Assembly (NCBI GenBank): GCA_024709165.1
Contig: JANJXF010000107.1
Location: 1-58,219 of the forward strand
DNA: 58,219 bases
Source of the DNA: Thiobacillus sp.
GTDB lineage: Bacteria; Pseudomonadota; Gammaproteobacteria; Burkholderiales; Thiobacillaceae
Direction: 5' to 3'
The notes under the pieces are model-generated. The model was not told the DNA's origin and did no database searches. It saw nothing but the letters and a program-made list of their open reading frames with translations. Positions 54,645-58,219 of this stretch are shown here, piece by piece; the stretch's first letter is position 1, and each line of letters starts with the position of its first letter. The position numbers and the translations under genes were made by a program.

Positions 54645-56744
54645 TTACATGCCGAGCCTGGCAGCCAGTTCCAGCGGCCAGCGCACCGCTGCGGCAATTG
54701 CCAGGGCGACGCCGATGGAGAGCATGACCGAGTAGAACGCGTCGCGGCGGCCGAGCAGTTTGAGCATCATCGCGAACGTCGAGACGCACGGCACGTAAAA
54801 CGTGAGGAACACGAGGAAGGTGGCAATCTGCGTGGTGTCCATCACGCGGTCCAGTTCCTGCGTGCCGAGCGCGGCGAATATCATCAGCAACGACAGTTCC
54901 TTGCGCAGCACGCCGAACAGAATGGGCACACCGAGCACCACGGGAAGCCCCAGCCACCACCCCGTCACCGGAGTGAGCACGAGATTGATCCAGGCATCGG
55001 CACCGAAATGCGCAAGCAGCGCCAGCACGATGCTGCCCGCCACCAGCAGCGGCAGCACAATGGTGACGATGTCGCGGCTGCGCTCCCAGGTGTTGGCCAG
55101 TACGGCGCGCAGCGTGGGAACGGCGTAGGGGGGGATGTCCTGAATCATGCCGGGCGTCGTCTCCGGGTAACGCCGCTTGAGCAGCTTGCCGACCAGGCTG
55201 ACCACGACCGGGGCGAGCATGAACAGCCCAAACACGCCGAGGCCACCCAGATACTTGCCACCCACTGCAAGGATGATCGCCGAACGCGCGGAGCAGGGCA
55301 GGAAGGTAATCAGCAGTGCGGCGACGGTGCGGTCGCGGCCGTGCGTGACCGCTGCGGTCGCGGCCAGCGCCGGCACGTTGCAGCCCAGCCCCATGAGAAA
55401 GGGCAGGGCGACGCCGCCGTGCAGCCCGAGGCGATGGAAACCGCGGTCCACCACAAAGGCAACGCGATGCATGATGCCGGTTTCTTCGAGCAGGACCAGC
55501 AGCAACACCAGCGGAATCATGTAGGGGATGACGATGCCCGTCAGGCCGATGAAGCCGTCCAGAATGGCGCGTCCCACGACGCCTGTCAGGTCGGTCGGCT
55601 GCCAGGGTTCGGCCCACTCGATGATGCGTGCCACGGTGAGCGCATCGAGCATCGCGCTCACCTCGAACACGAAGAACAGCACCAGCGCGAACACCGCCAG
55701 GGTTCCGACGAACCCCCAGCGCGGGTGTAGGAACAGATCGTCTGCCCAACGTTGCCAGCGTGGCTGTTCGCCCTCCTGGCCGGGCCGGCTGGCGTCCTCG
55801 TGGCAGACCGCGGCGCGGTGGTGGCGGTCGGCATGGATTTCGTCGGCCAGCGCACGCGGCAGCGCCGCATCGGCGACGGCGCGCGCGGCGAGCAGTTCGG
55901 CATGGCGTGCCGGAAAATGTTCCAGCAGTTCCTGCGCGAAATAGCCATCGTTTTCCGCGAGCTGCAAGGTCAGCAGCGATTCGGGGACGGCGAAGGCCGC
56001 AGCCACGTCGGCATCGCGCGCGATGGCGGCGATGCCCGACAGCTGCGCCTGGATGTGCGGGCTGGGTAGACAGGGAGCCCGTTGCGCGTGCGCGGCGCCC
56101 GCGTTGCGCGCGGCACGCACCACCGCACTGAACAGATCGGCCAGCCCGATGCCCATGTGCGCCACGGTGGGCACGACCGGTGCGCCGAGTTTGGTGGACA
56201 GGCTGCGCACATTGAGGAATTGCCGGCGCGCGCGCGCCTCGTCCATGCGGTTCAGCGCGTACACCATCGGCTTGCCAAGCAGCATGAGTTCCTGCGCAAG
56301 TTCGAGATCGCGCGCCAGCGTGGTGGCATCCAGAACCACCAGCAAGACATCCGGCGCGGCGAAACTGTGTTCCGGCTGATACGTCTCGTGGCGCGCGATG
56401 GACGGCCAGCGGTCGCCCCACAACAGGTATTTCAGGACCACCGAGGCATCGTCGTCCGGGTGATGGAACCCATCGACCGAAGGCAGGGCCACCAGGGATA
56501 TCTGGTCGATCCCCACCTCGACGATGCACTCCTCGTACGCCGGGCCGATGCCGGCGAGGCGCTCGTAGCGGGTTGCGGTGCTCGACGCGGCGCGAAAAAT
56601 GCTGTGCTTGCCCGCCCCGGCATGGCCGACGATGGCGACCCGCGGGCGGCGGCTGCCACGCAGACTCGGCCCGACGAGAGGGGAAACGGTGACGGGCGTG
56701 GCCATGTCGAATATATCGCGATCGGTTTGTCCCGGATAGTCCAT
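54645..56744 (-). CDS. feoB: FeoB-like ferrous iron transporter with degenerate GTPase motifs
   Basis: Membrane region LPFLMGLGCNVPALAATAAV, LPCSARSAIILAV, GVLRKELSLLMIFAALG; N-terminal P-loop-like VAIVGHAGAGKHSIF. Met at 56705 is an alternative start. Confidence 0.85.
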   Translation of the reverse strand: MDYPGQTDRDIFDMATPVTVSPLVGPSLRGSRRPRVAIVGHAGAGKHSIFRAASSTATRYERLAGIGPAYEECIVEVGIDQISLVALPSVDGFHHPDDDASVVLKYLLWGDRWPSIARHETYQPEHSFAAPDVLLVVLDATTLARDLELAQELMLLGKPMVYALNRMDEARARRQFLNVRSLSTKLGAPVVPTVAHMGIGLADLFSAVVRAARNAGAAHAQRAPCLPSPHIQAQLSGIAAIARDADVAAAFAVPESLLTLQLAENDGYFAQELLEHFPARHAELLAARAVADAALPRALADEIHADRHHRAAVCHEDASRPGQEGEQPRWQRWADDLFLHPRWGFVGTLAVFALVLFFVFEVSAMLDALTVARIIEWAEPWQPTDLTGVVGRAILDGFIGLTGIVIPYMIPLVLLLVLLEETGIMHRVAFVVDRGFHRLGLHGGVALPFLMGLGCNVPALAATAAVTHGRDRTVAALLITFLPCSARSAIILAVGGKYLGGLGVFGLFMLAPVVVSLVGKLLKRRYPETTPGMIQDIPPYAVPTLRAVLANTWERSRDIVTIVLPLLVAGSIVLALLAHFGADAWINLVLTPVTGWWLGLPVVLGVPILFGVLRKELSLLMIFAALGTQELDRVMDTTQIATFLVFLTFYVPCVSTFAMMLKLLGRRDAFYSVMLSIGVALAIAAAVRWPLELAARLGM

Positions 56745-57277
56745 CGGGCACCCACGCGCCCCGGCGCTGGCGGCGTATGCAGTGCAAAACGGGAGTCGGA
56801 TGCAAGACGCCCGAAGGCGTTTCTGTCTTTGCCAGATGGCAATCCGGGCACATATGAGAATGTCTCTCGTTTATAAATGTTTGACGTGCGGCTGTCAATT
56901 AAAATGGCGACAACCAAGGCATTCCACTGAAGAGCCGCGCGTGCTGCCAGCGAGGTCGTGCGCCAAGTTGACCGAATGGATGGGACAGATGAGTTCGCCA
57001 AGCAAATTGGCCCGGATTCACGTCCGGCATGTCGATTGCGCGAGCGGCGAAGCAGTTGTCGATGCCGAGAAGCATCGACAAAATCTTGTCACGTCTGGCT
57101 CAGGAAGGGATGCTGCTGGGTGTGAGCCGCGCGGCCAGAAGGGTGAACGGCTCGCCAGCCATCCCCGCTCCGCCGCCAGGGGGCGGCATACCGCCACCGA
57201 TGCGCATCTGGCGCCGGCCCATCGACGTGTGGCCGGCTGGAACAGCCAGCGTTTCCTCGGCTGGGCGGTCAGGATCG

Positions 57278-57486: not shown

Positions 57487-57843
57487 TCAACCCTGGCCGA
57501 TCAGGAACGCATCGCGGTTTTTGGCGTCCTTTATCCAGTTCGGCGGCTTTCCGCGGCCCGTCCAAGTCGCACCGGTTTCCGGATTGCGGTACTTGGGTTT
57601 CCCGACGGTTCGCCTGACCGCGGCCCTGGACTTCCGGCTTCCGGTCGCCACGCCCTTGGCAGCCGCCTTGGTAACGCGCGCGCGAGGTGTTTTCGGTTGC
57701 AGATCGTCGACGGTCAGATCGTACGCCGCCATCATTGCGCAGATTTTCGCAATGATTGAGCGCACTTCCTTTTTCCGGATTTTCTCCGCCTGCTTCAGGA
57801 TTTCTCCGGCTTTCGATTTCAGTTCTTGATATGTAGACATCAA
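57487..57843 (-). CDS. H-NS family nucleoid-associated protein
   Basis: MSTYQELKSKAGEILKQAEKIRKKEVRSIIAKICAMMAAYDLTVDDL, C-terminal VGKPKYRNPETGATWTGRGKPPNWIKDA. Confidence 0.93.
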   Translation of the reverse strand: MMSTYQELKSKAGEILKQAEKIRKKEVRSIIAKICAMMAAYDLTVDDLQPKTPRARVTKAAAKGVATGSRKSRAAVRRTVGKPKYRNPETGATWTGRGKPPNWIKDAKNRDAFLIGQG

Positions 57844-58111: not shown

Positions 58112-58219
58112 TTAAGCGGCTACCTGCATTGCATTGTATTGCCGGGTGAAAGCGGCGGGCGACAGATGGCCGAGTCGCGCCTGTTTTCTGATACGGTTGT
58201 AGAAGATCTCGATGTACTC
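58112..58219 (-). CDS. IS3-family transposase, C-terminal part, cut by window edge
   Basis: Reverse-strand translation EYIEIFYNRIRKQARLGHLSPAAFTRQYNAMQVAA* (own translation; not in the ORF track). Confidence 0.85.
   Translation of the reverse strand, partial: EYIEIFYNRIRKQARLGHLSPAAFTRQYNAMQVAA

Follow-up and report, generated by a model that had tools for sequence, protein, structure and literature searches.

A distinct FeoB subfamily with degenerate G motifs in Thiobacillus and related bacteria

We found that a Thiobacillus MAG encodes a FeoB-like protein that is probably a Fur-regulated, FeoA-independent Fe(II) permease of the inner membrane, belonging to a distinct FeoB subfamily whose N-terminal G domain would now be a pseudo-GTPase. 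The gene, an intact ORF of 699 amino acids, occupies 56744-54645 on the minus strand of the window, that is, of the whole 58,219-nucleotide stretch of DNA that was analyzed. Its orthologues begin at Met14 (ATG at 56705), which is probably the likelier family start compared with the first ATG. The features of the gene and its upstream region were as follows.

54645..56744, minus strand: feoB-like gene, 699 amino acids from the first ATG (ORF and orthologue alignment)
54648..55748, minus strand: membrane permease, residues 333-699, with two Gate stretches and FeoB_C (Pfam, AlphaFold, alignment)
55749..56096, minus strand: helical linker (GDI-like), residues 217-332 (AlphaFold helices; the NFeoB matches include the linker)
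56097..56645, minus strand: NFeoB-like G domain, residues 34-216 (Pfam FeoB_N at residues 35-207; AlphaFold and Foldseek against NFeoB structures)
56145..56168, minus strand: G5 region TVAHMGIG, residues 193-200 (alignment)
56241..56252, minus strand: intact G4 NRMD, residues 165-168 (N and D invariant in all members)
56352..56414, minus strand: subfamily-specific insert after switch II, residues 111-131 (DRWPSIARHETYQPEHSFAAP), absent from canonical FeoB (alignments)
56478..56489, minus strand: degenerate G3, ALPS where DxxG is expected, residues 86-89 (alignment)
56526..56564, minus strand: switch I / G2, ERLAGIGPAYEEC, residues 61-73, with Gly67 as the Thr35 equivalent (alignment)
56604..56627, minus strand: degenerate G1 / P-loop GHAGAGKH, residues 40-47, with Gly43 as the Asn11 equivalent and His47 as the Ser/Thr15 equivalent (alignment)
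56854..56869, minus strand: Fur-box-like palindrome CGAGAGACATTCTCAT, orthologue consensus TGAGAAnnnTTCTCA (motif comparison with orthologues)

The assignment to FeoB was supported by three Pfam families scoring above their gathering cut-offs: FeoB_N (69.5 bits; cut-off 27), Gate (88.5; 29.6), and FeoB_C (35.5; 26.6). The FeoB equivalog TIGR00437 was the best NCBIfam match, with a score below its cut-off (256.8 vs. 315.65). The hallmarks that an earlier sequence-only reading had recognized in the C-terminal half (GCNVPAL, LPCSAR, and RKELSLLM) were all present, and the permease residues C455 (GCNVPA), C484 (PCSAR), E616 (RKE), and C653 (PCVST) were kept in every full-length member of the subfamily. 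The region that the same reading had singled out as abnormal, 56240-56645, corresponds to the G domain of this ORF from beta1 to G4.

The motif positions below follow the numbering of S. thermophilus NFeoB (PMC3153494). The window protein has Gly at Asn11, His at Ser/Thr15, Gly at Thr35 (the switch I alignment tolerates a one-residue shift), Ala at Asp53, and Ser at Gly56, while Lys14 is kept and the G5 stretch VAHMGIGL shares its Ala with canonical FeoBs. The P-loop GHAGAGKH(S), as against a canonical GxxNxGK[ST], and VALPSVDGF in place of DxPG at G3 were both confirmed, and the altered G2 region indeed reads ERLAGIGPAYEEC. The loss of canonical G motifs described earlier stands for G1, G2, and G3, and fails for G4, the guanine-recognition motif: NRMD had been counted as a departure from NxxD, but it fits that pattern, and its N and D were invariant in 49 of 49 orthologues from betaproteobacteria and in every further member. 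The G1-G3 losses are real; a better alignment with intact G1-G3 elsewhere was ruled out, as independent alignments and the predicted fold agreed. In S. thermophilus NFeoB, basal GTPase activity is essentially lost in the T35A and T35S mutants, and mutation of the K+-binding N11 abolishes K+ activation (PMC3153494).

These changes were not peculiar to one genome. Orthologues with 64-92% identity were collected at 51 named loci from Thiobacillus, Rhodocyclaceae-labelled, and related genomes; the nearest named genomes were Thiobacillus MAGs, and the copy at locus L002 was 92% identical to the window protein. A profile of these orthologues retrieved the same protein, 47-59% identical, from 12 additional families of the class and also from another family of the phylum (inferred Mariprofundaceae), where 38 of the 74 genomes carried it, among them 22 of the 23 genomes of genus g133. 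Thr35 was found in none of 57 aligned subfamily members and in all of 33 canonical FeoBs from related genomes; in this canonical set, which included the sister Thiobacillus copies, every tested G-motif residue was intact save one G4 Asn. Among the 49 betaproteobacterial rows, position 35 was always Gly. Position 15 was His (22), Ser (16), Arg (5), Ala (2), Glu (2), Thr (1), or Gln (1), leaving Ser/Thr in 17 rows as against 33 of 33 canonical proteins. Position 53 was Ala (30), Asp (11), Asn (3), Glu (2), Ser (2), or His (1), with Asp kept in 11 of 49 vs. 33 of 33. Position 56 was Ala (35), Ser (7), Pro (4), Asp (2), or Gly (1), so that Gly56 remained in 1 of 49 betaproteobacterial, 0 of 12 gammaproteobacterial, 8 of 28 inferred Mariprofundaceae, and 33 of 33 canonical sequences. 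The P-loop Lys46 was present in 46 of 49 betaproteobacterial rows (Arg in the other 3), and the P-loop Gly45 and the G4 N and D were present in all 49. The loss is not due to chance: His follows the P-loop Lys in 22 of the 49 orthologues, and the remaining losses are likewise seen repeatedly.

A tree was built from the linker and permease with the G domain left out, by a quick search without bootstrap and with long canonical branches. The subfamily formed one side of a starred branch (SH-aLRT 99), and the betaproteobacterial members were likewise set apart (SH-aLRT 97). Read in the order 11-14-15-35-53-56, the canonical residues are N-K-S/T-T-D-G; the inferred Mariprofundaceae have N-K-S/T-(H, D, Q...)-D-(D, A, S or G), and the gammaproteobacterial members mostly N-K-S/T-(H, R, Q...)-D-S. 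Asn11 was mostly lost in the betaproteobacterial branch, and Ser/Thr15 and Asp53 were further lost in Thiobacillus and its relatives. On these alignments, the residues are eroded stepwise along the tree, and Gly56 is labile throughout the subfamily. The TIGR00437 score fell in parallel, from 379-557 in canonical FeoBs through 334.7 (an inferred Mariprofundus member) and 312.8 (a gammaproteobacterial member) to 257-260, including 259.5 in a Rhodocyclaceae-labelled member. The deep members have a normal P-loop, keep the G3 Asp, and carry a Thr immediately ahead of the Thr35 position (GT-H). Judging from these residues, their switch I may still reach Mg2+ and they may still be GTPases. Our firm claim of a broken site is limited to the betaproteobacterial branch, above all to the Thiobacillus branch. 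Independent P-loop erosion was also observed outside the betaproteobacterial branch, at L150 and L152 (SSGRD and NSGTR).

Pairwise dN/dS (Nei-Gojobori) was 0.06-0.19 for the G domain, 0.07-0.32 for the linker, and 0.05-0.11 for the permease, so that the three parts are of similar magnitude. The switch I sequence ERLAG[IV]GxAYEEC, counted over the betaproteobacterial members, and the G4-G5 stretch were nearly invariant. By these measures, the G domain is under purifying selection while the residues for Mg2+ and the gamma-phosphate are free to vary, and the low dN/dS and near-invariant stretches imply that the domain is conserved for some role. An AlphaFold model of the window protein (62-row alignment) had a pLDDT of 87.6 and a pTM of 0.62, and its top 50 PDB matches in Foldseek were all NFeoB structures (TM 0.81-0.91 on the target). 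According to the model, the NFeoB fold is kept; this agreement was expected and says nothing on nucleotide binding, because the alignment given to AlphaFold contains canonical FeoBs.

The same conservation could be read as that of a slow but working NTPase, which would bind and hydrolyse guanine nucleotide by non-canonical contacts and leave transport nucleotide-driven. The retention of Lys46, Gly45, and NxxD and the strong constraint on the G domain point that way, and some pseudoGTPases of the RGK type hydrolyse, retaining activity despite divergent motifs (PMC5593906). However, Asn11, Ser/Thr15, Thr35, Asp53, and Gly56 were lost together, Lys was replaced by Arg in 3 of 49 rows, and the next residue may be H, S, R, A, E, Q, or T, a freedom that does not suit a catalytic site. 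We therefore regard this alternative as unlikely. That Lys14, the P-loop glycines, and G4 are largely retained nevertheless counts against the pseudo-GTPase reading that we prefer, and from these residues nucleotide binding by the variant G domain is plausible and weak hydrolysis possible. PseudoGTPases have been divided into classes including nucleotide-binding and nucleotide-free ones (PMC5593906), and the retained G4 and P-loop glycines favour the nucleotide-binding, non-hydrolysing class over the nucleotide-free one.

The distribution of FeoA was investigated with the profile PF04023, which a very divergent FeoA could escape, and some of the genomes searched were incomplete MAGs; as a positive control, FeoA was found in 12 of 14 control genomes. 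The absence of an adjacent feoA, remarked on earlier, was borne out and extended, as no match was found anywhere in the 87%-complete genome of the window. In this genome of 2.6 Mb, the feoB-like gene also gave the sole FeoB_C match. FeoA was likewise undetected by this profile in all 30 distant carrier genomes, many of them from the inferred Mariprofundaceae, and in all 74 genomes of that family. Exactly one FeoB_C match above cut-off, the variant itself, was present in 28 of the 30 distant carriers, and in the other 2 the contig ends inside the gene. Among the searched Thiobacillus genomes, 26 carried the variant gene (one split and one a fragment): 10 together with FeoA and a canonical FeoB, and 16 with neither. 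Five of these 16 (G006, G010, G015, G036, and G043) were 97-99% complete, and all five had GKH in the P-loop and a single FeoB_C match above cut-off. As far as these searches indicate, whole bacterial groups carry the variant as their only FeoB and lack the FeoA helper, and in the ten Thiobacillus carriers with canonical feoAB it may do something additional. A previous survey of Feo systems chose its genomes by FeoA or FeoC matches (PMC8749426) and thus would have missed the subfamily by design.

Several further copies and lineages were noted during these searches. Loci L080-L082 (genomes G003, G007, G012, G021, G029, G032, G034, G050, and G054) encode, beside FeoA, another type of Thiobacillus FeoB whose G motifs are intact; it shares about 30% identity with the window protein and is distinct from the commoner canonical FeoAB of the genus. 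One Thiobacillus-group genome with canonical feoAB has its variant feoB split into two ORFs by an apparent frameshift (G050:C59:47058-48616; L050 and L078). In the inferred Mariprofundaceae genera g130 and g143, most genomes had neither the variant FeoB nor FeoA, and their ferrous iron uptake is unexplained.

Upstream of the betaproteobacterial copies, the palindrome TGAGAAnnnTTCTCA was found with at most two mismatches and within 200 bp at 27 of 47 loci, compared with 4 of 3,133 control segments of equal length, and most of these sites lay 25-35 bp before the Met14 position. The box of the window itself, CGAGAGACATTCTCAT, has two mismatches, lies further upstream than in most orthologues, and is weak when taken alone; the region between it and the start (window 56706-56853) is longer by about 100 bases than at L002 and L003. 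The sole site of the pattern with at most one mismatch in the 2.6-Mb genome directly precedes bfd-bfr, which is a typical Fur-controlled locus; this box (L175, G000:C107:17302-17317) reads TGACAATCATTCTCAT. A Fur-type box points to induction under iron shortage. The pattern was absent at 20 of the 47 betaproteobacterial loci and appeared in 1 of 40 distant members (with two mismatches), and matching of E. coli-type Fur boxes in distant members gave weak matches and nothing firm.

No gene neighbourhood was conserved across families, and gene order differed both between families and between Thiobacillus clades. The FAD oxidoreductase that had been named as a neighbour is real (Pyr_redox_2 / AIF_C), but it is convergent, and only L002 and L003 have it too; it was considered incidental, and a functional link to it was rejected. 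Other neighbours included a small H-NS-type protein (Histone_HNS, PF00816) at 57490-57843 on the minus strand, upstream of the feoB-like gene, and the last 100 bases of the window (58120-58219) resemble, by eye only, the end of an IS3-type transposase gene.

These results also bear on whether the protein imports iron at all. A FeoB paralogue could act as a regulator or sensor of iron or nucleotide, or could export Fe(II) or another metal, and the ten Thiobacillus carriers with canonical feoAB and the TIGR00437 score below cut-off are in keeping with such roles. This is improbable, however, for the variant is the only FeoB in many genomes without FeoA, its permease residues are invariant, and a Fur-type box, by the general logic of Fur, suggests a gene that is switched on when iron is short, as suits an importer better than an exporter. 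A different substrate, also suggested by the sequence-only reading, found no support, with C455, C484, E616, and C653 kept and about half of the betaproteobacterial copies preceded by a Fur-type box like that of bfd-bfr. Finally, a decaying gene under relaxed constraint and heading for loss, as the split copy alongside feoAB and the drift of motif residues within Thiobacillus might suggest, is already largely refuted and most improbable, given the G-domain dN/dS, ORFs intact in nearly all members, and the nearly invariant betaproteobacterial switch I; a pseudogene was rejected on the same dN/dS.

The proposal that the protein transports without normal GTP hydrolysis, or is differently regulated, is thus supported at the sequence level by the loss of N11, T35, and other Mg2+ and gamma-phosphate residues, by changes common to the orthologues, by purifying selection on the domain, and by genes without FeoA. 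In the permease with a pseudo-GTPase domain that we favour, GTP would be hydrolysed hardly or not at all, and the protein would behave like a channel or a facilitator, letting Fe(II) run down its gradient through the conserved Cys-containing gates. The G domain would act as a fixed or nucleotide-bound gate rather than a GTP-driven switch, either holding the pore or sensing guanine nucleotide without turnover. On ecological grounds, plentiful Fe(II) in the habitat would relax the need for GTP-driven uptake. The GTP-gated-channel model of P. aeruginosa FeoB (PMC4847171) is a natural frame by analogy, in which the gate of the variant lineage would have stopped cycling. More tentatively, and with rather more doubt than confidence, we suggest that transport is fully uncoupled from nucleotide hydrolysis and that the G domain is a ligand sensor (e.g., of GDP or guanine nucleotide via the intact G4) gating a passive Fe(II) channel without FeoA.

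This FeoB lineage appears to be without GTPase chemistry and FeoA but retains its permease, and its members grade from an intact P-loop to GKH, so that what GTP contributes to Fe(II) transport can be tested by comparing them. The lineage also points to a ferrous iron uptake route for some chemolithotrophs of iron- and sulfide-rich settings, namely Thiobacillus and, as inferred here, Mariprofundus, a marine iron oxidiser. Annotators should be warned that "FeoB" in this lineage need not mean a GTPase. Among open-licence PMC papers, a search for degenerate-G-domain FeoB, Thiobacillus FeoB, and FeoA in Zetaproteobacteria returned no report of the subfamily, although "FeOB" as the term for iron-oxidising bacteria obscures matches.

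Compared with canonical FeoB (TIGR00437; E. coli, V. cholerae, and S. thermophilus NFeoB structures), the window protein has the same G domain of NFeoB fold, helical linker, and two Gate stretches with FeoB_C, and shares the GCNVPA, PC[GS]AR, RKE, and PCV motifs as well as G4 and G5. It differs in lacking Asn11, Ser/Thr15, Thr35, Asp53, and Gly56, in the roughly 20-residue insert that follows switch II, in the absence of FeoA, and in its TIGR00437 score (256.8 vs. 379-557). The FeoBs of V. cholerae and H. pylori that use both ATP and GTP also depart from strict GTP use in the G domain (PMC11406355); theirs is a G5 variation with working G1-G3 chemistry, whereas the present variant has lost G1-G3 and kept G4. 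According to PMC10353542, FeoB is reported to suffice by itself in some species, and the present subfamily resembles these FeoA-independent systems, but in its case entire genomes of a clade lack FeoA. The eukaryotic pseudoGTPases (p190RhoGAP pG1/pG2, CENP-M, Rnd, and RGK) similarly combine a selected G-protein fold with degraded G motifs (PMC5593906). However, these are signalling or scaffold proteins, while the G domain described here is fused to a metal permease.
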